Positions 6,194 to 47,300 of a DNA stretch of 64,000 nucleotides are shown in pieces. Numbering within the stretch: position 1 is the first letter of the stretch; each line of letters starts with the position of its first letter. The notes under the pieces are model-generated. The model saw only the letters and a program-made list of their open reading frames with translations. It was not told the DNA's origin and made no database searches. The translations under genes and the position numbers were made by a program. Source of the DNA: Sthenelais limicola (lineage: Eukaryota; Annelida; Polychaeta; Phyllodocida; Sigalionidae); contig OW804098.1 in assembly GCA_942159475.1 (NCBI GenBank), forward strand, positions 9,836,406 through 9,900,405, given 5' to 3'.

Positions 6194-9100
6194 GTAAGTA
6201 CATTTGGTCAGTGTTAAATATTTCATGCTGAATATGCCATGTTTTCTATAGCATTTACACTGACATACAGCTTCCATAATTGCATGCGATGGAGATTCAA
6301 GATGACGGACATGCAAATCTATCTTTAGGTCAATATGGATGTTTACCATTCAGAGATAACACGACATTAAATATATATAATAAATATGTATTTTATAATG
6401 GACAGTAGTAAGGGACACAGTGTTTACGCAAATAATTGACAGTTAAATAGACTTTAATTTTAACTTTAAGTTCTGGCTGGCATTTTTATATGTACACCAC
6501 GTCCCTAAATGTTGGTCTATAGGTTTCTATATGTTTCGTATTGCCAACTATACCTGTTTTATGAATATTAAGATCGTATAAGTATTTTTCTCTGACGAAG
6601 CTGGCTAAAAAAATATATTTAATGATAGGTTATACACAGTACATCATTTGTTCTACAACTTTTTAGAAAAAGTTTTCATTACATTTACATCATCTATGTA
6701 ACATAATAGGGTAAAACGATAAGAATGGATACAAACTAACTCCCGCGCAGTGTCAAAATACTTCCAATATGGCTATTACCTTAAGTTTGTTCAAATTTGT
6801 TTTTGTCCTATTCATCAACTGACTCCAGGCATTTTAACATTTAACTACCTTATACAAAACAATTCAATAATAACTATTCACAAAGCCCCTACCTCTGGTA
6901 ATTTCCAGATTTCTTCAGAATTTTCAAACAGTTGCCTATAGAAGAATTTTATATTTTATATTTAAACATGTTTGTGTCCTCCATCTCAAGGTTTCTAACT
7001 GTCATTGGAAGGGAGTTCCATAGCTGTTCGATTTTTCCAAACAAACTACTATGTATACTTTCCTTCCTCCAGTTGTTCACCTGGAGTCTAAGTCCATCTC
7101 TGAGGTTGTATGGTCTCACTAATTCCTCTGCAATACTAAATTTACATCTAAATAAAGGATAAAATATTATTGACGCCTGTAACAAAGTGGTGTTAATGCT
7201 GACCTTATATGGGCATCATAATTCGGGAGCTTTTTTTGTACTCGCCTATTCGTTTTTATTCCATTAACTACTCTTAGACAACAACTGCACTCTTTTCACT
7301 TCTTTTTGCGCTGCTAAGTCAATAATAATACTACATCATACCAGTACAGGAAGAACATAGGTTTTATATATAAGCAAAGCAGTTTTTCTGTCAACAAAAT
7401 GTCTGATCCTGCTCAATCTTTTCAACAATAGTCGGCCATTTATGTTATTTATGTGCAGCACAATACTTAAAGTGTTGTTTAGAATAAACCCTAGGTACTT
7501 AAAAGTCACAACATTTGTAATACATTCTCCATCAGTTTACATTTGATATTCTCTTTTTTTCTTATCATTACAACCATAAAAGACCTGCAGTTTAGTTTTT
7601 ATTGTGTTGACCGTCAAGTTATGTATTACAGTCTCAAAACATGTATTGTTCAAGAGTTGCTCGATTTATGAGCAAAACAGCTGGTCTACTGATGACATCT
7701 TTTAAGGAGAAACGGGTGTGTGTACTGAGGAATGAGGGAGGGGGGGGGGGGGTTGACTCAATCAATTCTGGTGTAACATAATCAGCTTATCAGGAAATAT
7801 GATTTTCATTTAAACATAGGACATTAAATGAGAGGTTTATTAGATATTAATTAAACCTTTAATCAAGTAAACCTACTTACGGTATACTGAATTATACCGA
7901 TCATCTACTTTACTAGTTGTATGAGTCAACCTGACCACATTTTGTTAAATTATTCTTTATTAATTCATTTTGATCAATTCCTGTAATGCAGTTGTGGAGA
8001 AAATGGAAACACTGAGATCCGATTAGAGTAGCCCAGGGAAGAAAACGGGCACCAAATGAAACCCTAGTTTTTAAAAAAAAATGGAAAATGTACATTTAGT
8101 GTATCCATTGACCTTCAATATGAAAATATGCTATAATATAGAGCGCTGTACCCTTACGTATCATTAATCTTGGAATATAACCTATTTGTAGAATAGTTAT
8201 ACAACGGTTTGTCATTTGCTATGTTAGAATCAGATTTGATGTACCCGACGGGCACTGAGTGCAATTGAGTGTGATAGCACTGTGATCATTTTGGGATTGA
8301 CCGCAAACTAGTGAAGTGTGATACTTATGGCTTTGAATCACAGTGAAATGGACATGCCATTAGCCATCATTATGTGAAATCCATTGCGTCTATTTCCTCC
8401 AATGCTGTTGGTGATCTCACACTTGTGTTGGATCAAGTTCTCATTCATATTCATTTATGTTTGTATTAAACATGTGTTAATTAACCAATTGTATCTGCAA
8501 ATACATGTTTTCTTCAAAAGTAATTAATATGGGTGTGATCTCAATTGCGCTTATAATGCGCATTCCAAATCGCGTCTAAATAGGTATCCCAGAGGTCGCC
8601 GCTATGGCAATGAAAAATTGACGCACATGCAAAAGGCTCTGTGCTCATACAGATGCCATGCCACCGAAACAAACAAAAGATACGTATAGATATATCATGA
8701 GAAAGGCCAAAGAATTATCTTTCCAGTGATATACAATACATCATATATGATTATAATTTCAAGCTGGTTGCTTTAGTCGATTCTGAGATAATTTGAGTCA
8801 AAAATCGCTCAAAATTAGATTTATTGGGCTCTCTATAGATATGGATTTTTTCCTAATTTTCCCATTTTTATAGGCCATATTTGAAAATGTTCTTGAATAC
8901 ATACAAGTTTTATATCTTGTGGGTTTACTCTCACAATTACCTATTATCAGATAATATAGGATTAAACGTTCTCTGTTGAGTATTTATCTAATCATATGTT
9001 TCGTTAAATCTCCCTAATAATACTAATTTAATCGATGATGAAAATGGTGTAAAAAAATGGTAAATTTTTAATTTTGAAAAAATCATAGAAAAAAAACCTA

Positions 9101-23987: not shown

Positions 23988-24474
23988 CCCCTTCAATGCG
24001 GGGACAGTTTACACATATTTTGTCTAGCTGATGGGGGCCCTTTTCCCCCTTTTTGGGCTTCAGGACGGGTGTTTAACATGAGGATTAAGGTTTTAAAATA
24101 CTTTAAGAATATTCTCTTCAAATAATATGTGTCATATGTACAACGTTTAATAGATGTAAACAGTTATTGATCATATTTTTCCATAATTTCTAGAATTTGG
24201 TCTTCAATAATTAAAATAATGGGTTCCAATTGGGTGCAATATGGCAGCAACCTTGCTCCAAATTCACTTTCCAGCATTTACGTATGTTAGTTATGATGTC
24301 ATCATTATTGTCTCCATGACAATATACCTATGAAAATATTTCTAGTATGATTGTATACATATATTTTAAATTTCATCAAAATCCGTTTATTTATGAAGTT
24401 CAATTTATATAAAAAAGAATGCCTTGAGGCATCAGCCTGCCTTGTCTCCTTCTTGACGTTGATGCCTCAATGGG
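23988..24474. mobile_element. TTAA-flanked MITE, diverged relative of the LINE-interrupting copy
   Basis: Inverted relative to, and clearly homologous with, the element at 32835-33399; shared segments include CCCTTTTCCCCCTTTTTGGG and CAGGACGGGTGTTTAACATG. The right end is CCTCAATGGG then TTAA (24475-24478); the left flank is TTAT, a mutated target. It lacks the triple palindrome of the other copy. Confidence 0.75.
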
Positions 24475-24478
24475 TTAA

Positions 24479-25190
24479 AATGATGAGAATTCTAACAATG
24501 GTACCCTTTCGGAAACAAAATACATACTTCTATTTTTTTGGGTGAAACTATTAGCAACATAACTGGATATATATGTCTATAATGAGCATTCCTTTATCTA
24601 TATATGTCATAAATGTCCATGCTAACCATCACCATATAGCCAGACATACATCCTGCACTAAACCAATCTCTTCCTTGAGCTCAATATCCAATCACATCCA
24701 TCATTACATTGGCCAATCATTTTCTCAATTAGCAGAAGGGAAAGCCAATCACAAAGCCTGTCTTTGAATTGTTCTTCCTCGTCTGGACTAATTGTTTAGT
24801 CATTACAAATGTACAATTGACAACTGTACACATTTATTTTCTATTCTTCTTTATGGTAAAAATGGAGGAAAAAGAAAGTTGCCACTTCCACCCCCACCTC
24901 CTCTCATCCCAATATCAATAGGTAAGTCTACTAAACAAAGCAAGGCTCAGGTAAATAATCTGGCAGAAATAGAAACAATGCCCAGGGACCACAAACAAGT
25001 GGACAAATGTTTTTGGAGCTGGCGGGAATCTCTAGCGCCAATTCTCATTTAAAATAATCGCCCTTTTCTCCACGAAATTGGGAAAGATCCTGAGTACATG
25101 ATTGTAAGCACACGATCATGAGTACACATGTGTTTGCGGTGTTTGTGAATGCATGTTCTGTGTGCATGGTCTAAATGCATGTTATGACAC
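24479..25190. other. Intergenic, no supported gene
   Basis: Begins with sequence shared with gene B's flank (TACATACTTCTATT, CTATTAGCAACATAACTGGA). A Pro-rich short frame at 24860-24920 ending before GTAAGT (KLPLPPPPPLIPISI) looks exon-like, but no partner exon is visible. It leads into the minisatellite. Confidence 0.4.
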
Positions 25191-25713
25191 ACACTGACAG
25201 TGGCAGAACAACACTGACAGTGGCAGAACAACACTGACGGTGGTAGAACCACATTGACAGTGGCAGAACCACACTGACAGTGGCACTGACACTGGCAGAA
25301 CCACACTGATGGTGGCAGAACCACACTGATGGTGGCGGAATGACACTGGAGGTGGCAAAACGACACTGAAGGTGGCAAAACGACACTGACAGTCGCAGAA
25401 CTGCACTGACAGTCGCAGAACAACACTGACGATGGCAGAATCACTCTGACAGTGGCAGAACCACACTGACAGTGGCAGAACTGCACTGACAGTGGCAGAA
25501 CCACACTGCCAGTGGCAGACCCACACTGACAGTGGCAGAACTGCACTGACACTGGCAGAACCACACTGATGGTGGCAGAACTGCACTGACAGTGGCAGAA
25601 CCACACTGACAGTGGCAGAACTGCACTGACACTGGCAGAACAACACTGACAGTGGCAGAACTGCACTGACACTGGCAGAACAACACTGACACAGGCAGAA
25701 CTGCACTGACAGT
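25191..25713. repeat. 20-bp minisatellite, array 1
   Basis: About 26 imperfect copies of a unit like ACACTGACAGTGGCAGAACC, with one irregular unit near 25275. Long open frames on the minus strand are a by-product: a 20-bp unit without stops reads as the same cycling peptide in three frames. A sister array lies at 53220-53622, and both end in CACTGACAGTAAATCAGATA. Confidence 0.9.
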
Positions 25714-25769
25714 AAATCAGATACCAGCCCCATTACATCCTGTCATAGTACACGATTTTCTCAGCTTAT

Positions 25770-26395: not shown

Positions 26396-29300
26396 GTAAG
26401 TACATTTATTTTGGTCAGATTTTTAGAAAATGTATAATTGGCAGCTGTACACATTTAATAAATTCTGCTAAATTAGGCTGTAATTTGGTCAATACTAGGT
26501 AAATTTGAGTACATTCAGTACTGCATTGGTTCTAGCAATCTGTTTGGTTAGGTTAAACTGTATATTGAACTTTATTTTTGTCTGAAATTTAGGCTCTTTG
26601 AGAGGATTGGCGAAAGTGAATTGTACATTCTCAGGAAACTTCACCCATTGATACCAATACAAACTACTGTCCGTAATGTAAACAACCATTATTCAGGGAG
26701 GGAGTTGAGGGGTCTTGGCTAAGGGAGGGGAATAGAAAGGGTGTAATGTAGATGTGATTCCACACATCCCTCAGAAACAATTCATGGCCTGTTCTTAGGA
26801 TCAACAAATCGATACTGACAGTGACAATTGATAACATATTTTCCTGGCCGGACAATTTGACATAGACATTAGTGACAAAATAATGGACCATATTTCTAAT
26901 AGAAGTACCTAAAATTATTGTCAAATGCCAATTCCTGTTTCTTGATAGTAACAATAGGAATGAGTGTTTTGAGTTAAATTGTTTTATTGCTTTAATTGAT
27001 TGTCTTAGATATTATACGTTAATAAAGTATTTAATTGTATTTGATGAACTTGGCCATAGTCAGTGGGTATGTTATTCGATTTGTCCCACTTCCCAGACAC
27101 TTACAAATGGGATCTTTTCACCTATATTATAGCTTTTGTAATTTTATGATCATATGAAATTTTTGAAAACAAATGCATGAAGGGAAAGATGAAGTCTTGT
27201 TTCATGGAAAAAACATATGGCTATTTACATGTGATCACTGTTAAATATCCCATGCTGAACATAACATGTTTTCTATAGTTCTTAAACTGACATACAATTC
27301 CATAATTGCATGCGATCGAGATTCAAGATGGCGGACATTCATATTTCCTGTTAAAACATTATATAGAAAGCTGAAAAGAGTCAACAACTATCTACCATTC
27401 AGAGATAACATGACATTATATTATATATTATACATAATATATATTTTATAATGGACAGTAGTAAGGGACACAGTGTTTACACTTTCATGATTTACCCATA
27501 CTTTACTTCCACAAGAGCAATAATTCAAAGAGTAGAATTAAGTATAGCCTTTTTGCTCTCATTAGCATTATCTAGACACCACAGTAGGTGACAGACCATG
27601 CGTATTCCTCAGTAAATTAGCTCCTGTGACCCCATATATCTCGATGGGTAAAACTGCATTTTCAATATATCTTTTCATTTCTTGATGATGAGCTATATGA
27701 ACATACTAAAGGTGGACCCACAAAGAAATATATATTAAAGAGCCCTTTTAGCTAGACAGTGTGGTGGTTGGGTTTGGTGTGTTGGATATGAGGAATAATA
27801 AGGTAGTTGGTAGAGTTCTAAATATTATATTGTCAAAACACTGATGTTGATTATAGGTACATAGCAATAGTAGGCCAAATGTCCAGGGATATAGTGTCAG
27901 TGTTCAGCCAGTAACTTTCCCTGACAGAGATCCTTCTTACAGGCCTGAATCTAACTTCAATTCTGTCTGTTCCTTGGTGAGTACATGGTATTTCGAGTCT
28001 CAGAGAATTTAGTTCCTACAAGTATGACAATTTCTGTTTCCAAGGCCGGAACTTCCAAATCCCCTACTAGAATCAGTGACAGAGATCTGACAGGGTCACA
28101 AGAGAGGGTGTAATAGCATAAATTATTCATTGCTTCAGCTTTTAGTAATTATCTGTCCACCAAGTCAAATGAATATCTCTGTTGAATATACATTAAAGGA
28201 ATGCAAATGGCTTGACCTTATAAGCGTAAGATGGCGTCTACCGGTGCGGACGTTGGCTAAGTGTTGGGAAAGCAAGGCCCAATAATATGCCACAAAACTA
28301 ACTCGGACAATATATACACAGTACCACCAGAAAGCCACTATGCATGAGAGAATATACATGGACCTTTTACCTGATATCACTCATTCCTGATCGAAATATC
28401 CAATAATTCCAAATTGCCGTGACTCACTATCCTGCATTATCGTCCAATGGGCGATGACAACGCAGATCCGACCACACGTAGCAACAAACGACTACCATAC
28501 GCTTTGAGACGTATCATTTCTGACGAGACAGAAGCTAAAACTTTAAAACTTTATATTAGATCGCCACAGAAAATGGGTTCTGAAAGACGATCCTCAGAAA
28601 GGATAAATACATCGAATACTATCGGGAAAATGGAAGAAACCACTTCCCAAATGGCGTCACTGACAGCCGACCCAACAAAACAACCAGCATCGGGGTCACC
28701 CGAGTGCACGCAAGAGATAATTTATGCGGCACCTCTAGAGTTAGTTCAGGGAGATGAGGAATCGGTGGATTTGCAAAACGCAAATTCACCCCAGCAAACA
28801 GATTCACCTCAACCACCATCGAATGAAATGATTGACCCATTGAAAATCTATTTTGCCGAATTAGTGAAAGACTTGAAACGCCACAACGAAACCTCCTTAG
28901 AAGAACTTAAACAACACAATGAAACAACCCTAAAAACTCATACAGCCCAAATCGAAGAAAAGATAAAGAGTGCTTCACAAGAAATGCTAAAAAGACAGGA
29001 AAAGTATGACAAGCGCCTAGGGGAAATTGAGCAAAATCTTGGAGAAATAAAAGCAAGAACTGGCCCTGATAAACTCAACTCACTGATCAAAACTCAACTC
29101 GATGTACATATTCAAATCTTAAACGAAGGGGTGAAGAAAGAGAAACTCGCATGGGACACCCACATCAGAGAAATGAAAGATGACATAAGCACAAAAGCTC
29201 AAGCTTTACCTAACGACCAAGGAATCTTAAACGAAGCTAACAGAAAAATCGGAGACTTCGGGCGCAAACAAACCAACTTTGAGGGATTACTGGCCCAATC

Positions 29301-32300
29301 GGCACGTTCAAATGCAAAACTCAAAGCTCAGCTACATGAAGCTGACCACAGAAATGAACTTCTGGATATCAAGATCAGAAATAAAAATCTAATCATCCAA
29401 GGAGTTCCAGAAAATAAAGGAGAAAATTTTGACGACTATTTCTTCAATCTTATCGCCCCTACAGTTGATCACTTTGACCAAAGCCATATAGATCACGCTT
29501 ACAGGAGAGGAAAGTTTAACCCAAAATTTACCCGCTCAATTGTTCTAACCCTGACAACAGTTCATATGAGAGATCAAATATTGAAACAGGCAAAAGAAAT
29601 CAAAGACCAAGCGCAAATGGACAATCTTTGGATAAACAAAGACATCCCTGATGAGACCAATAGGAAAAGTGCCCTTATACGCCAATGCGGTAAGGCCCTC
29701 ACTGCTTTGAAACCTACTGAGAAACCAACCATTCGTGCAAATCACCTGATTCACAATGATCAAACATACCATTACGACGACCTTCACCTTCTCCCAAGCG
29801 GAGCTACCCCGTACGATCTGAAAACGCAAATCTATCCCAATGTAAATGCTTTAGGGTTTCAGGGAGACCACGTATATCTGTCTAACTTTTTCCAAAAAGA
29901 TTTTTGGTATAAAGGTGTGATTTATAGCTCTGTAGAGCAGGCTTTTCAGATTGCGAAAGCTCAAGATAATCCAACTCCCCAGAATACGAAACTCGCACTA
30001 GAAATGGGCAACATTGATGACCCATACGTTCTCAAACGAAAGGCCGCGAACATTACACCGGGAGCAAGTTGGCAAACTAAAGAGCGAGAATTACTCAAAG
30101 GTATTGTAAGATTGAAATTTCACCAAAACAAAGACCTAGGGCAGAAACTTAAGAACACTCCTCAAACCAAATTTTTCGAAATGACCAAAGATAGAAAGTG
30201 GGGCACTGGCTTCCGAATCAGAGATAAACGATTCGACCCCACACGTGTTGTAGGAAATGAGTTCGGTAAAATTTTGACAGAGCTAAAGTTAGAGCAAAAC
30301 TAACCGTTTGGGAATCGAAATATATATACTCCCATAAGTTGAACTGACATACCCATCTGAAATTGAACTGATAATATGCATTCTTGTAATATTCACTCTT
30401 ATTTTCTACTAAGATGGCTACCATATTCCTGGTCGGCGATTCACGTATATGTGACATCAAGCCCTATCTACAACCCTATTTGTCCGAACCACGCTTCGAA
30501 CATTTGCAAGTCATGTCTTTCGCGGGGGCTTCCCTGAAGCTCTCGTCTTTCATGGCAGAAGATCGCATCCGCTCGGTCAGACCTGGCACAATTATATTTG
30601 CTGCTGGCCTCTGTACCTTAACTAGGAAAAAGGACGGTATTGTTTCAGTGGCCCACCCCACTATAAACAAAGCAGTCGAAGTGTACAAGGCAGACATGGA
30701 AACGGTCGAAACCAGAACGAAGCAAGCATTATTTCCATGCCAAGCGAATATTATTTTCGCTCCAGTAACAGGTATGCACCTGGCTACATACAATGGGCAG
30801 CACTACAATACACAACAAATCCTCCTGAACCACACCGTAACAGAAGTAAACCTCGCTATTCGTCAGAGGAATGAGGTGAGAGGCTACCCCACCCCATATC
30901 TGGCAGATCTCGTGCACCATAATACGAAAGGAAGCAAACAGAATTACTATTGCCGCCTTGACATCGATGGATGCCACTTGACCGAGAGAGCTTACGATCA
31001 CTGGTCCAAGCAAATAGGACGTATGGTTGACCGTCTAGATATTGCGATGCACAACCGCACAATACTCTATGACTTTTAATTAAGTATGGACATGTAATCG
31101 TGAGTAGAAATCTTTAATTTAAGGTGTTGTTTGATGTTATAAGAAAACACCAAGGTAATTTACTCACGTATCTCTCCGTCCAAACCATCATAAGTTATTC
31201 ATTCCATTTATTGTTTACCATGGGTATGTTAGATCAAAGCAGGGATGTTTTTTCTCCCTATGCTGTGGCTGCTTCCCCGAAGCTCCCACAAACTATAAAG
31301 TATTAACACTACTGTATATAGAAAAGAATTTCTCTAGATTATTTCCTAATGATATAGAGAACTACCACCGTTGTGGTATGAGTTGGGCCAATTTGCTGAC
31401 CCAATTAGGTCAGATAGTGTCAGCACCGAGAGACACAAATATAAACGTTGGTAATGTAGATCTATCACTTAGTGATAGTGTAAGTTTCAATGAAACAAAA
31501 GGTTTTAAAATAGTCAGCTTGAATGTGAGAAGTTTATTAAATAAGATTGAAGAGATTGATACATTGTTTGATCAATTTAAAACACAGGTGATATGTATTA
31601 ACGAAACCTGGCTTGACAAAAAAGTCTATGATAACATGATTAAGCTGGATGGATATAACCAGTTTAGAAACGATAGACAAACGGAAAAAAAAACTGGAGG
31701 TGGGCTTATTACATATGTAGCGGATAAATATGAAATTCTGCCAATTAGTGATGATGTACAGCATTGTTCGGTGGACATTGAGATCCAAACAACTAGGATT
31801 AAGCAAAACCAAAATAAAACCATAACGATAATCAATACTTACAGGAGCCCAAGTGGCAACCTAACCAAAGCTATCGATGTAATTATGGAAATTTTAGAAA
31901 AAATAGATAATAGTGATACGCTGGTCCTGGTTGGGGATCTCAATGTGGACTATAGCTCCTCTTCCCCAGCAAAATCTCAGTTACAAACAATTGAGAATAA
32001 TACTTCACTGAAGCAGTTCATAACATTACACACCAGAATCACCACTACAACTCAAACAACAATTGACCTTTTATTCTCAAGTTCTAAATTTATACTAAAG
32101 TGTGGCACAATTAACACCAACATAAGCAACCATAAGCCAATATTTGCCATAATAAAGAAATGTAAAGAGACTTATGAAAAGATAAGCTTTAGGTGTCGAT
32201 CTTATAGACGCTTCAGCGAGGAAGTTTTAACCAATGACCTACTGTCCAATGATTGGGTGAAATTGCTAGAATCCTCAGATCCTGAAACCTGTTGGCAGAA

Positions 32301-35300
32301 TATGTTAGAAGCCATAATGAATGCAATTAATACGTCTTGTCCAATTTATGAAAAAACCAATGTGAGAGCGAAAAAACCGTGGATTACGGCTGAACTCCTT
32401 GACCTCATGAAATCTAGAGATCAACTATTTAAAGCTTCCCGGAAGCTCAAAAACTCTGGACTGCAAGATAAAGCAAAACAACTTAGAAGAAGAGTAAACC
32501 AATTAGCAAGAAACTTAAAAAATAATTATATAAAAAACGAAATTGAACAAAACAAAAGTAACCCTAAAAAACTTTGGACTACTTTAGGCCCACTTATTAA
32601 TGGTAAAACTCGACCACACTATAAAGATATAATCTTAAAAGAAAACGATACGGAAATCCCTAAAGAAGCGGTCCCTGACACATTTAACCACTTTTTCGCC
32701 TCCATTGGTAATAAACTCGCTGACCAGATCCAAACACCCGACAATGCTGAAGACAGAAAGTACGATAATATAATAAAAGAAACAAAAAAAGAAACACAAG
32801 CCCAATTTAGGTATAGACCCACTACAGTTATTAACTCATTAAGGACGGGATGCTGCCTCAAGGCAGCATTTTCAAAATGGCGTTGGGGACGGGATGCTGC
32901 CTGCAGGCAGCATGATGTCCTCTCCATTAAGGACGGGATGCTGCCTGCAGGCAGCATATTTTTATATAAATTGAAGGGGGCATAACTTAATAAAAAATAA
33001 ACGGATTTTGATGAAATTTAAAATATATGTATACAAACACACTAGAAATATCTTTATAGGTATGTTGTCATGGAGACAATAATGATGACGTCATAACTAA
33101 CATACGTAAATGCTGGAAAGTGAATTTGGAGCAAGGTTGCTGCCATATTGCACCCAATTGTGACCCATTATTCTAATTATTGAAGACCAAATTCTAGAAA
33201 TTATGAAAAAATATGATCAATAACTGTTTACACCTATTAAACGATGTACATATGACACATATTATTTGAAGAAAATATTCTTAAAGTGTTTTTATACCCT
33301 AAACCTCATGTTAAACACCCGTCCTGAAGCCCAAAAAGGGGGAAAAGGGCCCCCGTCCACCAGGCAAAATATGTGTAAACTGCCCCCGTCCTCAATGAGT
33401 TAACCTTAAACGTATAATCGATACTATATCTTCCAGTAAGTCGTTGGGTGTGAGGGACCTCCCAGCCTGGTTATTAAAGCTATCGCTTAAAATACTTGCC
33501 ATCCAATTTCTCAAACTTGTTGACATGACTTATGAAAAGGCTATTATACCTGTAAGCTGGAAAACAGCCGCAGTAACACCATTATATAAGGCTGGATGTA
33601 CTACAAATCCAAGTAATTACAGGCCGATTTCCACAATATTATTACCTGCCAAAATATTAGAAAAAATTTTCCACCAGCAAGTAACTTCTCACTTAGAAAA
33701 TAACAACATTTTGTACGAATCTCAATATGGATTCAGATCTGGGCACTCAACCCAAGATGCAATGGTGAATTATTTGAATACTGTTTATGCCGCTCTTAAT
33801 GATGGTTTGGTTGTTAGGGCTGCCTACCTCGACCTCAGAAAAGCGTTTGATACCGTAAATCATATTAATTTGCTTTCAAGACTATCTTGCTCAGGTATTC
33901 GAGGAAAGGAACTAGAGTGGTTCAGAAACTATCTAACAAATAGACACCAGTCAGTGACGGTGAATAAGATCAAGTCGGATAGTCTCCCGGTTACCTGTGG
34001 GGTACCCCAAGGGACCACCCTAGGACCACTCCTCTTCATTATATATATTAATTCCCTCCCAAAATTTATTCAAAATTCGAACATACAAATGTTCGCTGAT
34101 GACACCATAGTTTACGCCACAGGACAATCAATACAAGAATCAACTAATAAACTACAAACTGACCTAGACTCACTAAACTATTGGTGTAAGACAAGTAAGA
34201 TTTCACTCAACTTAGGGAAAACCAAGGTACAAACTTTTTTTAGTCAAAACATTCTGAGGTCGAGGTGGGAAAAAGAACAAGCATATCTAGAACCAAGAAA
34301 TGTACTAACCCTCGATGGGAGCAGCCTCGAAGAGGTCAACGAATACAAGTACCTGGGTATCATTATTGATAAAGCTCTTAAATTTAAAATATTAGTGCAA
34401 AATTTAACCAACATATTAAACTATAAAAGTTGGCAACTTGCCAAACTGAGAGATAAGCTACCCATAAAAACCTTATTACTTATATATAAGGTCATGGTTC
34501 TCCCTCTGATCGACCAAACCGACTTACTTCACGACTCGCACATTACTTCAGGCACCAACCGATTGCAAATTGTTCAAAATAAAATACTCAGGGTTATATT
34601 CAAGCTCCCACCAAGGACAAATGTCGAGCAACTACATATTGACAATAGAATACTTCCATTAAAACATCGCCGCCGTCTGCACCTACTACAGGCAGGACAT
34701 CGTTTAGCAAAAAAAACCAGGAATATTGATTTAAAATTATTAAATACAAGAAACTTCGCGGAAGGTCGGAAAGTACTAAAACAGATAACACCTAAGAACG
34801 AACAGTTAAGGAAATCTTTATTAAACCGTATTACTTTCTCCTGGAATAAGTTGCAAACAGTGGCACATCGACTAGTAGATCCTCAGGCATTCAAATTACA
34901 TGTAAGGCACAACCCCATCTGGGAAGACCAAAATTTTATAGATTAATCTATGTATATTCTTCACCAAAAACACCATTGTAAAGTATTATAGAGTTGTGAA
35001 GCTATTTCAATATAGAAGTTCGGACTCAAGAAGACAAGGCGTGGTGGTGGTTTAGAAGTGAAGTTTTACTGGTCACAGGGTTACATATATACCCCCCGGG
35101 GCATTCTCCCGCTGGGGGGGGGAGGGTAGTACAGCATACCCTGCTGGCCTACATCATGGTTACATAACATGGTTTTATTACATCACACTTATATTCCATA
35201 ACTATCATTCATATTAATCTCATTTGAATATGCAGTACAACCTTATTCCCATTTCCTAGAACTAGACATTTATTAATTCATAAACAGTCAATGTTACCTC

Positions 35301-38300
35301 CCCCCCTTTCTAGGGTTATAGCCTCTCCCAACTAGTTGGAGGGAGAGCTAGGTTGAGGGGGGAGGGTGGGCAAGGCAACAATGGTGGGGTGGGGGTCTGT
35401 GGCTCAGGATTGCTTTAATTACAAGGTTTAATTACAGTGAGGGTTGGTGTAGGGGTATAGTGTTGGTGTATAACATCAAGTGGTTAATTGTAGTGACAGC
35501 CCAGCAGGTGGTATTGTTGGTCAGCAAGGGGATTAATTTCTAGGTATCTTCTAGGAGGACAAAGGGAGTATAGGGGGTGTCAGGTTTTAGTGTTAGTTTT
35601 AGGCTGTTATGTTAAGGGTAATTTTGCACTTAAGGGATCTGGAGGTGGGCTGATTTGAGGGTCGTTTTACTGGGTTTTTAGAGGAAATTGTACCTGTACC
35701 CATAAATATAGATTCCCCTTTTGTGTGGTAGAGTGACTGTGTGGGAGCGTGGGTCCAGTAATTGGTTTAATTGGATTAATGTATTTCGACCCCTGGCGTG
35801 CCCCCCCTCTACCTGGTACATAGCTTAATAAAATATAAAATATTTCTACAATCGTCTATACCTTTTTGTTCAGACTATATCGTCTGAACACACTTATCTA
35901 CTCTCTACCTTCGATTACATATGCGTGCGGTATTCTATTCTATGGTGCTATCTCAATGTCTTATATCAACTATGTTTTTAACCTTCCAGTGTCTAAAACA
36001 ATGTCTTTTTAGATTCGTTCGTTGCCGACAATGTCTTTCGGTTCGTGACTCACTGGTGGTATTTCTTCTCTTTCTTAATCGCTCGATTATCCCCCCTTCC
36101 GTCGGGGACTTTGTCTTGTAATCAATTTTCTAGGAAGGCAGCCACCACCGTGTTGCGCTCGTGAACGCAACACCACTGCATGCCTTCCTATCTTCATACC
36201 CGATAGACCGGTGACCGGTGTCTATCTCCACTCGTGAGCGGCGTCATGTCTGACTCTCCTTTTCCTGCTAACTAGAGTGGCTGGGGACCCGGGATCACAT
36301 CCGCTTGGGTCTTGGCGTAGTCCGTTCTTATCGTTCTGATGTGTTTAAACCCTTGGTTTATCAAAACCATATAGCCCCATGGCTGCTTGCCGGTATGGGC
36401 CGAGGAGAGGGTCTGCTGTTGCTCCTATCTGTTCGCTTTCTGCCCTGTGGCTGCCAGCGAGGGCGGCGATGGAGTGCCTGGATGCCTTGACGAACGGTGG
36501 GGCTGATCCGTACATCTCCGTGGTGTGCATGAAGGTAGGGTAGCTGTGTGCCCTATTGAGGGTTGGTGTGCTAACTTCTCTCTTACGTTTCATGCCTCTA
36601 GATCTATAGCAAGTTAGCATTTTTGGCACTGACAGGCATCCTGTAGTTTTGCTCTTGTTTTTACCCCTGGTACACACCACTGTGATTGTGCATACTATGC
36701 CTACCGTAATAAAGATGGAGGTTAATATTAGAACTATTTGGTGTTTCTGGAAAAATCTATGTGTCGGCTCGACGTGGGGTTCTGGTGCCTGTATTAGGGG
36801 AACTTGGGCACGTTTGACCAGTTGTAACTGCTTGGCCAATGGCGTGTTTCTTATTATAGGGGTTGTGATGTTCAAACTTGGCAGCCGGACAGGTTGAGGA
36901 TTCGGCAGACGTAGTTCATCGCGGGCTTCATAGAGGCCACGGATCCTCCAATCCTTATACTCCAGTGAGCATCCGCTCTGAACCACCATCCGTCTTGGTG
37001 CTGCCACCTCGTGAGTAATAGGATGTTGACTGGGACAACGCTGTACCACTTTGATCGGGGTGTATGGTACAATCACTACAATGGAGAGATAATCTGCGTC
37101 CCTATACAACTGACAGGTCTGATTCTTTTGTTGTTTAACTTCTGCTTTGCAGTGGACGGGGTCCTGTGCCATCAATAACTCACTTTCGCAAGTTGCTTGA
37201 GTGTACTCTACCGTGGCAGTACAGACACGGGGCCCCTTCCCTGTACACTGTTCAGGTACAAAGGTGGCTTTGGATAAACTGTCTAGGGCTATTTCTGTAT
37301 GTCCTATTATGGTACGAAGGTACCCATTCTGGAGAGGGATGGCAAAATACCTGAGTTTATAATGTAAATACTGTGTTTGGGCGAGTCCGGGTATTATCAC
37401 TTGGTAGATTAATTCCTCGTCTCTATCTACCATCATTTTGGTGTGACAATGCTGATAATGCCACCTGAGGGGGGCGTGGTCGTGCCCTCTTTCTCTAATC
37501 TTTTGTAGTATCTGTTGTAGATAGGCGGGGGGTAGAATTTCATCAGTCAGTTGTCCGCGTTCTAGTTGCAGGCGCTGTCTATGAAAGGTTTCAGTTAGAC
37601 GATGATATTTTAAGATAGCTTGGTCAATGGTATATATTAGATTGTCTACTTGTCTACGTATGTGCAGCCTATGTATCCTCCTGCCATCTTCTGACAAGTG
37701 GGTCATTATATTTGATACTTGTTCCTGTAAGTTTGTTGTGATAGCCTGTAAATCACCTATATCTAGCCTATTCTCCTGTATGTACAGTCGTGTTTCATTA
37801 ATGACTGAAATCATTTCAGTTTGGTGGTGTCCTAGAGCCAACACACTCGTTTGTGTGTCCATCACTGCGCTGGCCAACTCCTGCACTTGGGTTTCCGTAG
37901 CCGTGCCGAACAAGAGATGGGATAACATACCAATGAAGTTGAATGGGCTGCGTCGTCCCCTGTTCGGTTTGGTGTTGTAAGTAGTAGAGAAGTCATAGGC
38001 GATGTATTCCAGACGTTCTAACCACTGTTGTGCGTCGTCGTCGCCCAACGCTTGCGTTTTGGTTAAATCTAATATCTTCTCTCTCATTTCTTGTATCCAT
38101 ATCTCTATCTTGGGCGGTTCTGGCGGATGTAGTAGAATAATGGTAGTCCAGATACCGCTCAATGCTCTCATTTCTCCCAGTTTGTATACCAGTACTCCTT
38201 CTTCGGAGAATAGATCTTTTGAGTGGCCACTGGTGATTAGTATGATGACCACCAAGCCAAGAATGCCGCAACTTCCTCTACACATTTCTTCTTTTGTAGG

Positions 38301-41300
38301 CGTACAAGGTCTTCAGGAGGGGGAACTAGAGCGTTTCGTTTCTGGCCCTGTGGAAAACGTTCTCTCTTAGAAGGAGGTTCGTCCACGTCTACCTCTGATC
38401 CTGTGTGTACTTCAGATGTGGACGGTTGAGGAAGGTCTCGCTGGACCCTTCTTCTAGTAGTGACTCCTACGGTGTCAGGTAGGCCGGACCACGGGGGTAG
38501 GCGGCTGTGGTGTCGCTTGCGATTGTGAGTGACTGGGTTTGGTTGCTGCTGGGGTCCTGATGGGTCATTAGGTGGGTCAGGGTCCTCGCCTGGGTCTGCA
38601 ATATCTTCTTCCTCGTCGGTGATGTCTCCTGGGTCAGGCTCAGCATCCGGTGCGAGTTCTGGTTGTCCTACAGCAACGTCTGGTTCTGGAAAAATAGGCA
38701 TTACCCCTTGCTCAATAACCTCACGCCTTTGTCTTTCTAGTTTACTTTGTTTTGGGCGGGTGTTTCTATTCCTGATTGAGTCCCATTCTATGTCGGGTGA
38801 TACTAACTTTACCCTTTCTCTATGTATGTGTTTAACCTGTTGGTCCTGTCCCACTACTGTAATTACTTTATCCCTGATTCGTGTGACAGTATAGCCATGA
38901 TCCCATTCTGGGTCTAGAGGGGCGGAGTTATGGTGTAATAAAACTACTGAATCCCCTATGTTTAACACCCCAGCATTTGCTCGCTCTTGTAAACGAGCAT
39001 AGTTGTATTCCCGACTTGTTTCAGTGTTAATTGCTGCCGCTCTGAATGCATCTGTTAGCTGCAGTATTCTTGTACCCAGTACATCTTCTCCCGCTCCTTC
39101 AGGTATTGGAAATAGTTTAGTGAGGGGGTTCTTGGGTTTGCGGCCATATAACAGAAAGAAGGGAGAGTACCCTGAAACTGATGAGGTAGAGATACGATGG
39201 GCCCAGAGAGTGGGGCCAAGGTGATCCTCCCATTCTTGGGGTCTTGCGTTTACAAATTTTCGCAAAATTGATTTAAAAGTACGGTGGAACCGTTCGATTT
39301 TACCGTTGCTTTGCGGTCTACAGGGCGAGGAGTGGCGCACTTCTACTCCTACTCCCCGCAAGTACCCTTCTACTACCCTGTTTTTGAACTCTTTTCCCTG
39401 ATCAGTAATTATGATTTCAGGGGCACCGTAACGTGGCATGTACTCGTGTGCTAGAAAATTAACTACAGCTTCTGCTGTCTTATTGGCTAGTGGTTTGACT
39501 TCTACCCAGCCCGTGCAATGGTCTATTACCGTAAGGATGAATTTATGGCCACATCTGGAGGTAGGAAAAGGTCCACACATATCCATCCCTAGAATCTGGT
39601 TAGGGTATTGGGCAATGGGCATGGGCGTGGGGGGTGTGTGATCACGGCGTGTCTTATTGACTGCACATCGGGCGCATTGTGATATTATTGAAAATACATC
39701 CCGCCTCATTTTTGGCCATTTGTAGGCTTCTTTGAGTCTATCTAGGGTCTTTTGTAGACCTTGGTGGCCTACTTCTGTGTGGGCTCTCCTAATTACCCTG
39801 CCCCGTGCTGAAGTGGGTAAGACTAAACGTGGGTATTCAGGTTTTCCCGGGGGTGGTATTAAGGTGTAGAGGAGGCCTTCATACAATATGTATCCATCCT
39901 CTTCTTCTTGACCCAATAGATATTCGGGCATGGTTTGTTGCTCAGCCTTAATTTGGTTTTCTTCTAATTGGTCAAAATCCCATGGGATGTTATTTATTTC
40001 TTCTATGGCCCCCATTTCTATTTCTTCCCCTATGTAGAGATCAGCACCATCAGTGTTTCTAATACCCGGTTTGAGTCTAGATAGCATGTCCGCGCGTACA
40101 TTATTACTACCTTTCCTGTATTCGATTGGTGCTCCATACTCTGCTAGTAATACTGCCCACCTTTGTATACGCGTGTTCTTAATTTCTGAGAGGAAAAGGC
40201 TCTTTAGGGGTCGGTGATCAGAAAAGATAGTGAAGTCTGCGCCATACAAGTAGGGGCGTAGTTTCTTCAGGGCATGTATTATAGCGAAGGCTTCTTTCTC
40301 AATAGTGGACCAGCGTAGGGAAGCTCCTGACAGCTGTTTGCTAACATATTGAATTGGTCTTTCTATTCCTTCTGAATCCCTTTGACATAATATTGCCCCC
40401 ACCGAGAAATCGGAGGCATCTGTATACAGCTGGTAGGATTTCCCTACTTGTGGGTAAGCCATAATACGATCTGAGACCAGCGCCTCTTTGAGGGTGACCC
40501 ATGCTAGTTGCTCCTCCCCTCCCCATTTGAAATGTGCATATTTCTTGGTTAGTTGAACTAAGGGGTAAGAAATCTTTGCATAGTCTGGGATGCACTGACG
40601 ATAATAGCCAGTCATTCCTAGGAACGAGCGTACTGCTGTTACTGATTCAGGTGGGGACATATTTTGTATGGCTGTTGTCTTCTCAGGGTCCGAGCTAATC
40701 CCTTTCCCTGATACGACATACCCTAGTAATTTGACCTCTGTCTGTTGGAATGAACATTTGCTGCCTTTGACAGTTAAGTTATTGGCCTGAAGTGTTTCAA
40801 ACACGAGCCTCAAGTGTTGTTCATGCTCCTTGACATTTTCAGAATATACTACAATGTCATCCAAGAAAATGAATACAAATTTACCTATATACTCCGCAAA
40901 GACCTTATTCATCATGCGCTGAAATACCGCTGGGGCGTTACATAGGCCAAACGGCATGCGTCTGAATTGGAATAATCCGCGGTGACAGACAAAAGCTGTC
41001 TTTTCTCGACTGGCTTCATCTACTTCTACTTGCCAGTAACCAGACTTGAGATCTAAGGTACTGAATATTTTTGCCCCGCCCAGTCCATCAAAAATATCTT
41101 GAATGTGGGGTAGTGGGTGGGCATCTTTCTTGGTGACTGTATTTACTTTTCTAAAATCTACGCAAAAACGCGTGTCGCCGCTTTTCTTAGGCACCAAATG
41201 CACTGGGCTGGCCCAAGGCGATGCGCTCGTCTCAATGATGCCTTCTTCTAACATCTTATCTACTTCTTGGTCGATCAAGAGACGTTTTGTGAGTGGGACC

Positions 41301-44300
41301 CTATAAGGCTGTTGTCTGATAGGTAGGTTGTCACCTGTGTCTATTTCTAGGGATACTACATGGGTGGCTGGTAAGGCTGTACTGCCTGTACCAAAGACTG
41401 TAGGGAATTCTGCCTGCCAAAATTCTGAGACGGCTACTGCCTCTGCTATGGTCCTATCTTCTCGCCCCCCTTCTGCTGCTGAGTAGGCCCTCCCCTCTAA
41501 GGTGACTGACCTGTCCCGGAAGTTAACAATGCCTTGTAATATTTCTAAGACGTCTGCCCCTATTAGAGCATCATGGTGGAGCGTGTCTACTACATAAACG
41601 GGGAATGCCCTCCCACCCATATCCACCATGCTCTGTCCCAATGTGGGTATTTCATGTCCACTTAGAGATCTTAGATATTCTCCCTTAGTGGTAATAGGGG
41701 CCCTATGTCTTTCTTTACAAAACATTCGCCATATATCGCTTCTAAACATAGACCTGCTTGCGCCGGAGTCGACCAGTGTTTTTCTACCTTTCCCTGCTAC
41801 ATCAATATAGATACACAGTCGTCGATCCGGCGACTTTATTCCCCCTGAGCATTATTGGTAGGGTTCCTGATTGCTGCGATTACTGCAGCTTGGATCTGAG
41901 CATAACGGGTGGGGCATTCCCTGGCGAAGTGGCCTTCTTGGCCGCACTCGTAACATTTATTGGGTCCCCTGAACCGTTTGTTATTACTCCCCCCCTTTGG
42001 TTGTTGGTCTCTGGCTTTATCTCTCCCATTGCTTTCTGTCATAGCCCTCCCTCCCTCTTGGCTATTTGTACCTTGGGCAGCTGCCATCGGCAGCATGTTT
42101 GGATTTTGGTAATACGGTAAGTACATTTGAGGCGTATAGTGAGGGTTACATGCGCAAGGATTGGGGCTGGGTCTGCTCTGGCAAGCGTTTGGTTTAGTTT
42201 CTTTTGGTTTTTTAATCTGAGCTACTTCTTCTTTTAACTCCCTGAGCATTTGCTCCAATTTATCAAATGCATATGGTTTTTGAGAAATGTTGTTTATTGC
42301 TCCTATTTCCATAGGCTCCTCTCTACGAGTGCTTCTGGTAGGAATTGCGGCTAACGCCGAAGTATGAGCTGCAGCACTGGCCGCATTAATTGCCTCGATC
42401 AATGTCGCCGGCCTAGTGGAGAAAACATCCCTACGGACATCTGTATCCCTTAACCCCGTAGTAAAAATGCGTACAAGCTGTTCTTGTACCATTTCATTCT
42501 CCATTTGTTCCTCCCCATAGGCTCTTTGGGCTGCTAATAAAAATCGGCGGCCATACCCTTTTGCATCGTCATAGCTAAGTTGTACTATCGTTGATAGTTG
42601 AGCCCGCAACTGCTGCTCTTCCTCCTCATTCATGAAGAGTCTAATGATTTCCCCCTTTACATTCAGCCAGGTCCTGTGTGGCTGCTGTCTGTTAGCTAAA
42701 AAGTTGGCAATACACCGTGCTAAAGCTCCTTGTGCTAGGCACCCTACTAGTTCAATTATCAAACAGTCCCCCGCATTGCAGTAACGATTTGCGCGGTCTA
42801 ACCCATCCAACCACTCCCTTAAGGCACCCTTATCTGATCCGTCGTTAGTCCCAATTGTATTGCCATGGCGTTCAAGCCTCCTCCTAATTTCTTTCACCTC
42901 AGCTACATTAGCTAGGCGCTCATCAGGTTGAGCTGGAAGAGGTACGCCTCCCCCCTGTTCTTGCTGAGGTAGGGGTGCGGCATTGTTGACATCGGCTATG
43001 ATATTTTGTGCGTTATCCATTATGATTAACAATAATGTAAGAAGGTAAAATGAGTTATCCCTGCAATGCTACCCTGCTCTAACCATGAGTATGTTATTGA
43101 ATTTAGATAAAGCTCAGCATCTAAGTGTATTGCACCTTTGTGCGACTAGCTGCATCTAACCAACATGTAAGATAGGTATGTGCGAAAAGCGCACGCTTGC
43201 CAGAGTTGAGACCCGCATTCCCGAGTAATGCCTATACTTACCAACCGGAGCGGCTGTGTGTGTTCTTGTAGGAGTCCAGGTTCTGTTAGAATTCCTGTCG
43301 GAAATTCTTTATGTTCCTAATTCGTGGTCGCCATTATAGAGTTGTGAAGCTATTTCAATATAGAAGTTCGGACTCAAGAAGACAAGGCGTGGTGGTGGTT
43401 TAGAAGTGAAGTTTTACTGGTCACAGGGTTACATATATACCCCCCGGGGCATTCTCCCGCTGGGGGGGGGGAGGGTAGTACAGCATACCCTGCTGGCCTA
43501 CATCATGGTTACATAACATGGTTTTATTACATCACACTTATATTCCATAACTATCATTCATATTAATCTCATTTGAATATGCAGTACAACCTTATTCCCA
43601 TTTCCTAGAACTAGACATTTATTAATTCATAAACAGTCAATGTTACCTCCCCCCCTTTCTAGGGTTATAGCCTCTCCCAACTAGTTGGAGGGAGAGCTAG
43701 GTTGAGGGGGGAGGGTGGGCAAGGCAACAATGGTGGGGTGGGGGTCTGTGGCTCAGGATTGCTTTAATTACAAGGTTTAATTACAGTGAGGGTTGGTGTA
43801 GGGGTATAGTGTTGGTGTATAACATCAAGTGGTTAATTGTAGTGACAGCCCAGCAGGTGGTATTGTTGGTCAGCAAGGGGATTAATTTCTAGGTATCTTC
43901 TAGGAGGACAAAGGGAGTATAGGGGGTGTCAGGTTTTAGTGTTAGTTTTAGGCTGTTATGTTAAGGGTAATTTTGCACTTAAGGGATCTGGAGGTGGGCT
44001 GATTTGAGGGTCGTTTTACTGGGTTTTTAGAGGAAATTGTACCTGTACCCATAAATATAGATTCCCCTTTTGTGTGGTAGAGTGACTGTGTGGGAGCGTG
44101 GGTCCAGTAATTGGTTTAATTGGATTAATGTATTTCGACCCCTGGCGTGCCCCCCCTCTACCTGGTACATAGCTTAATAAAATATAAAATATTTCTACAG
44201 TATATTAGTAATATGACTTTCGATAACACAATTTACCATTGACCTGGTACATTATTATTATTGTTGTAAAACTGTCTCCTGTAAACACCGATGCATAAGA

Positions 44301-47300
44301 ATTTGAATTTGTAACCAGATGTTTGATTTGATTCTATAACTCATCGTTGACCGATATCGCTATGTGTTATTTAAAAACATATAAACTATGTTGAATAGTA
44401 TATTTAACTGTTTATCAGACTATGTATCTGATATTTGCTATTGTAACTCACTATTGACTGAATATGTTATTTGATACTTATGTTTATAAAACAAGCTGAA
44501 TGATGAACACTTAACTGACTATCAGATTCTATTCTATTAAATTTAATTTAACATTTAAGACATTTCCAACGTCGAAAGAATTAAAACCGTAATTACCTAT
44601 ATATAATTTGCTGTGTGCCACTTTCGTCCCCGACGAAAGTGGAATTGTTCGCAGCCATTCAACTCTGTAAGGACTTCAAGCTGGCAAACCTCCCAATGTC
44701 GGAGAAGTGCCCCCTTATCGTGACCACGGTCAATAATAAATGTTTTACAATACAATACAATATTATTCCATAACTGCAATCGATACATTGTTATTGAAAA
44801 TACTATATGAAACAATGCCTCTTTACTCATATCAAAATTTCACTAATTGTTTAGTTATAAACTTTGGACATGAATAATTGACAATTGAAATAATAATATT
44901 TCAGACTCAAAAACAGACAGTTAGAAAGTTATAACAAACATAAAGCTCAAACAAAATAATTAAATAATTGACAGTTATAAATAGACTTTAATTTTGAAAT
45001 TTCTGGCTGGCATTTTTATATGTACACCACATCCCTAATTGTTGGTCTATAGGTTTCTATATGTTTCTCATTGCCAACTATACCTGTTTTATAAGTATTA
45101 AGATCATATAAGTATTTTAATTACAAATTTACAAGTAATTACCAGCTTAAAAGTTATAGTCTCTAAACATGTATTGTTTAAGAGTTGCTCGATTTATGAG
45201 CAAAACATGGTCTACTGATGACGTCTTTTAGGGAGAAACAAGTGTGTGTACTAAATAATAAGTAGGGAAATTGGCTCTGAAACAATTCTGGGGTAACATA
45301 CTCAGCTTACCAGGAAATATGATCTTCATTTAAACATAGTGTAGTGTCTGCTATTCTTACGTAAGGGCCCCTACGTAAGGGCCCCCTACTCATTAGTCAG
45401 CCCCTGGAGGAGACTCTGTACTTTACATAGGATATTGAAATAGTTGCTTCGCTCTTCCCATGAAGACCACACATGCCTCAGTGTTCCTTCCTTACTCCTT
45501 AACATATTCGAAAGCAATAACGACACAGTCCTTCCAGTCCTCTCTAGCTTATCTGTTTATTATTAAATACGTATTGTGGAAAGCACCCGGACAACTACTA
45601 GGAATCCACCTCACATTGCAGTGGGTGGAAGGTATATTTTTCTGACCGAAGCTTTAGTTAAGTATAAATTAGTTTATCCAGAAGCTAATTTATCCTTTAG
45701 TCACAACCTTCTCCACAACAATAAATTATAGATTGGCAAATAAAGGTTGTTAAATTATTCTTTATTAATTGATTTTGATCTTGATTTTGATCAATTCCTA
45801 TAATAAAGTTGTGAAGGAAATGGTTACACTGAGGTCCGATTAGAGTAGCTAGCTCAGGGACCAAGAGCGGCATCAAATCATACCCTATATAGTTTCAAGA
45901 GAAATATGGAAAAAGTACTTTAGTTTATCCATTTCAATATAAACAATAGTAGTAGTATCAACGTTTTTTTGTTAGAACCAGATTTGATGTACAGTCCAAA
46001 ATCCAGTTGCCAAGATCTAAGATCCTTTTCCTTATGAACTCAGTATTAAGATTGGTAAATCTCCAGTAAAGAAGGCTGAAATCTACTCTTAATATCTTTG
46101 GGACTGAGGGCATTATTTGACAATGACCACTAAAGACTGATGCTGCAGTTTTGTTTTCATTACTACAGCACATCTGATGATCTGTAAATCATTTCACCCC
46201 ACCGGTCCATGACCATACATATTTACAAGTAATGCACAATGTTGTCCTGCCTAAATGACATGTAGACCTATATTTAAGTGTTTCCCTGTAAGTACTATTT
46301 ACATTTCTGTCTGTGTACCTTGACAACCCAATAGTATATCAAAAGGAATGTTAGCAAGTTACACGTTTCTTATTGCAGGTCGCAGGGCAGACACTATAGT
46401 GTGTCCTGTTGGTGAAACTCATGTCTTCAAGTGGGGATGGGACTATTGGAAATTGAGAAAAAGCCATACCTGTCTCAAGGGTAAGTTAAAGCGAGTTGTT
46501 ATTACTCTGACTCTGAAATTGGAATCCGATGCAAAACAGCAGCCTACTTTGGAAATGTGTAGCAACATGGTCATTGGATTATGAAGGAAAAGACCATGGG
46601 ACTGTGTCAATATCTGGAAATTCCAGGTGTCTATTCTTACATAGGCACCGTCAAGCTTTTCATAAATTCCAGGTTGGCTAGTCCAACAAAATATACTAAA
46701 TAGTGATTACATTTCCAAATGAGATAAGATATTGAAAGGCAAATGCCTAAATAGATTTAATATGTTGGCTTTCAGAGACATTAGCAATACCGCCTGTACC
46801 CATTACAGTATCCACCTGCGAGTGTGAGGACTGCTTTTTACAGTGTAGAGAAGATTGCACTGCATATAGATACTATCCATTCAAGAGACGTGGCTTATTG
46901 CGAATTGGTAAAGTATCCTCTGAACTCAAATTAATATTTCTACCAAATTCTGTCCATGTATGATTAGTTCAAGCAATATACTTGGAGCTAAAGTTGGTCT
47001 GCCAACACAATGACACTCTTCTATTTGTATGATATTCTAGATGATGTGTAGTTAGTGTCCATGCGTGTATTTCCACCATTATATTTTGTTTATGCGAAAA
47101 CATTTGAATGACCAAATATTGTGGAACTTATAATTATTGCTTTAAATTAATGATTAAAATGGAAATATGCTTAATAGTTCTTTATTCTGGTTAGGATAAT
47201 TTTCATGAACAAGGAATCTATATAAAATTTGATCCACAGGATACCTACTATCATGTAGTATATATTTAAAATGCAATGAGTCGGCATACCCAACTGCTCA

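Follow-up and report, generated by a model that had tools for sequence, protein, structure and literature searches.

A NADAR domain at the C-terminus of a LINE ORF1 protein

What might a domain of the ADP-ribose-processing NADAR family be doing in a retrotransposon protein of an animal? The question is raised by a 64,000-nucleotide stretch of the annelid Sthenelais limicola (hereafter the window; assembly GCA_942159475.1, contig OW804098.1, positions 9,836,406 to 9,900,405, forward strand), which contains a long interspersed nuclear element (LINE) whose first open reading frame (ORF1) ends in such a domain. In the available excerpts of the literature, to which all citations below refer, the role of NADAR in animals is called unclear (PMC11125620). 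The ORF1 of 618 amino acids (28447..30303, + strand) was open throughout and comprised a variable N-terminus, a putative coiled coil, a putative L1-like RNA recognition motif and C-terminal domain (RRM/CTD) and the C-terminal NADAR. The observation of a NADAR-bearing ORF1, made initially by a sequence-only reading of the window, was confirmed, and the fusion suggests, without proving, that the element may erase ADP-ribose tags on its own RNA or DNA.

The NADAR domain occupied residues 474-614 (29866..30288, + strand), where PF08719 matched with 51 bits (E 2.6e-13; curated cut-off 35.1 bits). The intact frame, the NADAR tail, its motifs and Glu497 were thus all found where the sequence-only reading had placed them, and the profile search that it had proposed returned a significant match. 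All six family representatives searched also matched NADAR at E <= 0.1 (best 1.6e-17). When the full-length ORF1 was compared with PDB sequences, the only matches at E <= 1 were 8bau (E 0.0023) and 2b3w (E 0.095), both NADAR structures, and with a profile built from the six families they improved to E 5e-10 and 6.4e-4, respectively. The domain was 27-36% identical to the aligned bacterial, phage and viral NADARs, and a tblastn search with the NADAR piece gave matches to 198 records from phages and to 20 from plasmids (E <= 0.01, lowest 8e-10). The NADAR match in ORF1 is not due to chance. TIGR02464, the NCBIfam model of the riboflavin-related YbiA equivalog, matched as well (E 7.8e-14), and membership in that equivalog was rejected, as the score of 52.2 bits lay below the trusted cut-off of 73.7.

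Searches of a 5.8-billion-sequence protein database gave no match among the 7999 scored candidates for the full ORF1, nor among the three candidates for the cut NADAR piece; since the word filter is possibly biased towards coiled-coil words, these results were not used to infer the distribution of the protein. No ORF1 relatives were found among viral contigs. One viral locus matched by the NADAR alignment (L043, with E 2e-6 among the candidates) was dropped, since by eye it resembled a phage structural protein carrying the motif by chance. In a NADAR tree, which drew a long-branch warning and was confined to hand-picked LINE, bacterial, phage and viral rows, a branch (97/78) separated the seven LINE NADARs from 52 bacterial, phage and viral rows.

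Active-site residues

In the structure of a Phytophthora NADAR with ADP-ribose, the distal ribose is held by E43 and E125, and the pyrophosphate by K50, W133 and, through a water, D130 (PMC11543638). The HMMER alignment, counted with a two-residue offset, paired E43, E125, D130 and W133 with E497, E578, D582 and W585 of the window ORF1, and Lys504 is equated with K50 because it stands seven residues after the glutamate. The codons concerned, all on the + strand, lie at 29935..29937 (Glu497), 29956..29958 (Lys504) and 30178..30180 (Glu578, the marker glutamate of the YbiA subfamily). In the Escherichia coli C7 NADAR the K50 and E125 equivalents are required for activity; at the E43 equivalent a change to Gln abolishes activity, one to Ala leaves it almost intact in vitro, and neither mutant works in cells (PMC11543638).

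These residues were followed in alignments and in other copies of the genome. In an alignment of 12 sequences (A1: the window copy together with five further families and six NADARs from bacteria or phages), E497, K504, E578 and D582 were invariant and W585 nearly so, while all five were invariant in an alignment of the window copy with 46 viral NADARs (A4, 47 sequences; 46 of 80 viral loci were used after near-duplicates and odd lengths had been dropped). Within the genome, 36 locus entries, several of them from the same place, kept E497 in 35 of 36 readable cases, K504 in 35/35, K530 in 34/35, W542 in 31/34, E578 in 33/34, D582 in 32/34 and W585 in 33/34. A further sample of 20 loci (see next section) kept E497 and K504 in 17 of 18 readable cases each, E578 in 15/16, W585 in 16/16 and D582 in 9/16; at K504 the deviating locus (L137) appears to be misaligned, as a Lys stands seven residues after the Glu. 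Loss of the catalytic residues was therefore rejected.

By the rule given in PMC11543638, Glu578 places the domain in the YbiA subfamily, and the ORF1 NADAR is probably a catalytically competent, YbiA-type enzyme. It shares with YbiA and the DarT1-associated NADAR antitoxin the family, the active-site Glu and Lys and the YbiA-type Glu578; those proteins stand alone or in a toxin-antitoxin operon, whereas here the domain is fused to a retrotransposon protein.

Distribution, conservation and selection

The genome surveyed comprised 1.13 Gb in 161 contigs, the nine largest of which (C1-C9) total 1.127 Gb. At least 71 scored ORF1 matches were obtained from 5339 first-look candidates, and their spread over all nine large contigs led us to reject an assembly artefact. 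Sixty-three of the 71 extended to residue 615 or further, that is, through the NADAR. Among the other eight, four (L012, L023, L026, L031) carried their NADAR sequence in a different frame or on a separate piece, L027 was the other half of L025, L013 and L030 retained part of the domain, and the eighth lies on C9. The RRM part alone gave 151 matches (2667 candidates), and 20 further loci were hand-picked along this list, outside the 71 ORF1 matches and with short frames included. NADAR sequence was found downstream, as the best single match, in 19 of these 20, over at least 136 residues in 15 of them and over shorter lengths in four (L124, L127, L136 and L125, the last with merely 22 residues). 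The sole exception, L138, reads as a broken copy in which a stop in ORF1 is followed by unrelated sequence near the domain border. The sequence-only reading had named copies lacking the domain as a possible refutation; its presence in nearly all sampled copies instead indicates that ORF1s of this lineage regularly include NADAR. A second, far more divergent ORF1 and NADAR remnant (NADAR 28% identical), adjoining another element in L042 (6764-7690, - strand), represents a further NADAR-bearing lineage.

For regional identity, 16 open ORF1s were aligned. Between the window copy and four distant families (L033, L034, L041 and L042), NADAR was the best-conserved region of ORF1, with 55, 61, 59 and 56% identity; the RRM/CTD reached 49, 46, 46 and 42%, the coil 22-31% and the N-terminus 17-27%. 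Some copies of the lineage differ little (synonymous divergence, dS, of 0.015 between L032 and L033). The ratio of nonsynonymous to synonymous divergence (dN/dS; Nei-Gojobori, own script), a measure that the sequence-only reading had proposed for the NADAR part, was 0.07, 0.09, 0.13 and 0.08 between the window copy and its close relatives L008-L011, and 0.18, 0.05, 0.08 and 0 in other close pairs, each value resting on 0-7 nonsynonymous changes. As synonymous sites were mostly saturated between families, no between-family ratio is quoted. NADAR is under purifying selection. Having an intact active site and being the ORF1 region most conserved from one distant family to another, the domain makes this element a directly testable retrotransposon system.

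Coiled coil and RRM/CTD region

The putative L1 ORF1p-like RRM/CTD region spans residues 296-453 (29332..29805, + strand). A profile of residues 296-465 searched against PDB gave as its four best matches three LINE-1 ORF1P chains and one entry named 'ORF1 codes for a 40 kDa product' (E 0.015-0.058), while PF02994, the Pfam model of L1 ORF1 (transposase 22), was absent from the matches of ORF1 and of the family representatives. The RRM-like domain announced by the sequence-only reading was weakly supported by the rank of the L1-type chains and not by the Pfam model. Weak PDB matches to coiled-coil-like proteins were compatible with the putative coiled coil; Pfam matches to Enkurin (0.0015) and TCTP (0.0086), each in one member, were discarded because they look like coil-driven noise. 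The protein may resemble the LINE-1 type (type II) ORF1p in its putative coiled coil, RRM and C-terminal domain, the profile match being weak (E 0.015), and differs from it in the C-terminal NADAR and in having no Pfam L1 ORF1 match.

Proposed function and alternatives

The reading that we prefer, and to which we give an even chance, is that ORF1 may be an L1-like RNA-binding chaperone whose NADAR would remove guanine-linked ADP-ribose from the RNA of the element, its nascent complementary DNA (cDNA) or the target DNA. ORF1 proteins are presumed to package element RNA (PMC3905857). If the ORF1 protein coats the RNA of its own element, the fused NADAR would be placed at the RNA, the cDNA and the target site alike and would strip ADP-ribose from guanine bases in cis, and such removal would keep reverse transcription unblocked. 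RNA binding, enzyme activity, substrate, action in cis and a host ADP-ribosyltransferase as the source of the modification are what we infer here. Tested NADARs strip guanosine in RNA of its ADP-ribose while leaving modified phosphate ends untouched (PMC11833690), and they do the same for guanine in DNA (PMC11543638, PMC11125620). Six edible clams possess N2-guanine DNA ADP-ribosylating activity, and CARP-1 was cloned from one of them (PMC11209040).

These published NADAR and clam activities make a counter-defence plausible, and to that extent the suggestion of the sequence-only reading that the element may reverse host ADP-ribosylation is partly supported, whereas the host writer, the substrate and the activity enter it as assumptions. 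The wider claim, that a large LINE lineage encodes, fused to its RNA chaperone, a nucleic-acid de-ADP-ribosylase countering host ADP-ribose marking of guanine in retrotransposon RNA or cDNA, is put forward tentatively, as we consider it possible and rather doubtful. Such an arms race would parallel the bacterial DarT-NADAR pairing, with CARP-1-like transferases of the clam kind as candidate writers, and, if true, animals would count the reversible ADP-ribosylation of nucleic acids among their genome defences.

Several points weigh against guanine ADP-ribose removal by the ORF1 NADAR. At the nearer evolutionary distance of family L014, the RRM/CTD was better conserved (84%) than NADAR (75%), and whole-ORF1 dN/dS between the window copy and L008-L011 (0.09, 0.09, 0.11 and 0.13) was about equal to that of NADAR, not higher, so that on this scale the domain is constrained like the rest of ORF1 and not more. 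The pocket is not uniform either, as D582 was replaced by Ser or Gly in seven of 16 readable loci of the 20-locus sample (L126, L129, L131, L137, L139, L140 and L143); with the other pocket residues kept, a change of substrate is possible there. Moreover, activity in vitro is almost unchanged by the E88A mutation, at the position equivalent to E497, and NADARs of the stand-alone YbiA and phage kinds act less strongly on RNA and did not rescue cells from DarT1 (PMC11125620, PMC11543638, PMC11833690), YbiA and a phage NADAR being less effective on RNA than the E. coli C7 NADAR (PMC11833690). Other roles proposed for NADARs concern riboflavin intermediates and trans-splicing (PMC11125620).

In the solved NADAR, every one of the conserved residues makes contact with ADP-ribose, so binding fits them as well as hydrolysis does and sequence cannot separate an eraser from a reader. 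As a reader, NADAR would bind ADP-ribose carried by proteins, RNA or the ends of DNA, tethering the ribonucleoprotein to marked chromatin or breaks and aiding access to the target site. The variable D582 equivalent in a subfamily agrees with this, but the tested NADARs all hydrolyse guanosine-ADP-ribose and none acting purely as a reader was met in the available text of PMC11125620, PMC11543638 and PMC11833690, and we regard a reader as unlikely. Similar guesses for RNA viruses and the nematode protein SNA-3, together with the processing of RNA intermediates proposed in PMC12477816, would favour a part for NADAR in how the element RNA is processed or translated (for example in the treatment of its 5' end or of a splice leader), ADP-ribose not being the physiological substrate; since removal of guanosine ADP-ribose is the sole NADAR activity on nucleic acid in the available parts of PMC11125620, PMC11543638 and PMC11833690, this seems to us less probable still.

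Hydrolysis of a small molecule, either a reactive riboflavin intermediate or an NAD-related nucleotide, might protect the ribonucleoprotein or alter nearby metabolism. It draws on the TIGR02464 match described above, that model being one of a riboflavin-intermediate N-glycosidase, and is countered by the score falling short of the trusted cut-off. To our knowledge, animals do not make riboflavin, and we hold this explanation to be improbable. That NADAR is a passenger domain kept by chance would accord with the modular nature of LINE ORF1s, which swap domains (PMC4120745), but is contradicted by the conservation of NADAR between distant families, its low dN/dS and its presence in nearly all sampled copies, and we give it hardly any credence.

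Reverse transcriptase affinity and known NADAR retrotransposons

The reverse transcriptase (RT) of the element carried GVPQGTTLGPLLF at the place where L1 ORF2p has TRQGCPLSPLLF, which speaks against L1. Its best PDB match was L1 ORF2p (90.8 bits), the matches listed comprising L1, R2, retron and group II type RTs together with general names. RT relatives were plentiful in the 5.8-billion-sequence protein database (3715 of 8000 candidates at E <= 1e-10); as they bore no names, they did not place the clade. We take the GVPQGTTLGPLLF motif and the short tandem-repeat tail to fit CR1/L2/Jockey or related groups rather than L1/Tx1. Tx1 belongs to the L1 group. A remnant of another LINE RT, 28% identical to the ORF2 RT over 125 residues, lies elsewhere in the window (7279-7617, - strand).

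The bare fusion of NADAR and ORF1 is already in print and hence not new: PMC12477816 (2025), the one paper recognised in full-text searches as linking NADAR to retrotransposons, reports divergent NADAR matches in ORF1 of several Crassostrea gigas Tx1 LINE families, as well as NADAR in Pol of a Gypsy lineage of the brown alga Ectocarpus. The oyster elements share with the window LINE a YbiA-family NADAR in a LINE ORF1 protein; they are filed as Tx1, whereas the window LINE has the GVPQGTTLGPLLF RT motif, a tandem-repeat tail and an SGNH-like ORF, and as the oyster set is known by description, the two may possibly be the same lineage. The Ectocarpus Gypsy is likewise a retrotransposon with a YbiA-type NADAR, but it is a long terminal repeat (LTR) element with the domain in the N-terminal part of Pol rather than in an ORF1 protein. 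A three-ORF layout with an SGNH-like ORF, a near-universal NADAR in a large lineage, and active-site or selection evidence were not seen in the available text of PMC12477816. If the RT is indeed CR1/L2/Jockey-like, NADAR-bearing ORF1s would occur on two RT clades, in line with the ORF1 exchange described for Jockey-superfamily LINEs (PMC4120745).

Structure of the element and an SGNH-hydrolase-like ORF

The element is an APE-type LINE with three ORFs, encoding ORF1, an SGNH-hydrolase-like protein and an endonuclease-RT. It is thus wider than the sequence-only reading had it, the latter two ORFs lying 3' of ORF1. It spans 28226..44764 (+ strand), with ends common to other copies, and is interrupted by two younger insertions. 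Its 5' end at 28226 was common to four other copies (L008, L009, L010 and L011) and its 3' homology ended at 44762 (L037) or 44764 (L022). By copy comparison, the 5' untranslated region (UTR) covers 28226..28446 (+ strand). ORF2 was split in the window into an APE-type endonuclease part (31378..32830, + strand; PF14529 E 4.8e-8, PF03372 E 5e-7) and an RT part (33404..34946, + strand; PF00078 E 1.1e-34 in the piece 33444-34946). L037 (on C6), a longer piece of the same place as L011, had neither insertion and possessed open ORFs of 618, 221 and 999 amino acids within about 6.75 kb, its 999-residue ORF2 holding PF14529, PF03372 and PF00078 together. The remaining 3' UTR (44200..44764, + strand), delimited by homology to L037 and L022, ends in the short tandem-repeat tail (ACAAT)n.

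The second ORF (30414..31079, + strand; 221 amino acids) was present in five of the six 8-kb elements fetched and missing from L040. Its GDS motif and near-C-terminal DGCH were invariant in all five members aligned, as were Ser10, Asp185 and His188. Among the GDSL families, PF00657 was matched by two of the five members and PF13472 by one (best E 5.6e-5), and the window copy gave no Pfam match. By eye, it has a GLCT block without the usual oxyanion Asn at the expected place, which makes catalysis by this protein uncertain. As a LINE-encoded, SGNH-like protein that keeps Ser, Asp and His, it may resemble the esterase of CR1/L2 ORF1 (ZfL2-1; PMC3905857); that esterase is a domain of ORF1, whereas in the window LINE the protein is encoded separately beside the NADAR-bearing ORF1. 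Jockey-superfamily esterase ORF1s were found only in vertebrate groups according to the available text of PMC4120745, and esterase ORF1s occur in RTEX and Penelope elements as well (PMC3905857).

The larger insertion, an LTR retroelement with gag, pol and env (34985..44199, - strand), lies in the LINE 3' UTR. Its LTRs (34985-35850 and 43333-44199) are 99.9% identical, indicating a recent insertion, and it encodes a gag with CCHC, RT, RNase H, integrase and a Baculo_F-like env, the last scoring 22.5 bits, below the cut-off of 24.1. The smaller one, within ORF2, is a miniature inverted-repeat transposable element of 573 bp (32831..33403, no strand assigned) with TTAA at both ends and 19-bp terminal inverted repeats, without counterpart in L037. 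It contains three internal repeats at 44-bp spacing with a GCTGCCTGCAGGCAGC palindrome, and a partial second copy, 90% identical, lies at 23999-24437. Upstream of the LINE, overlapping ORFs of a Cys/Gln/Ser-rich repeat (25049-25733, - strand) probably represent a minisatellite.

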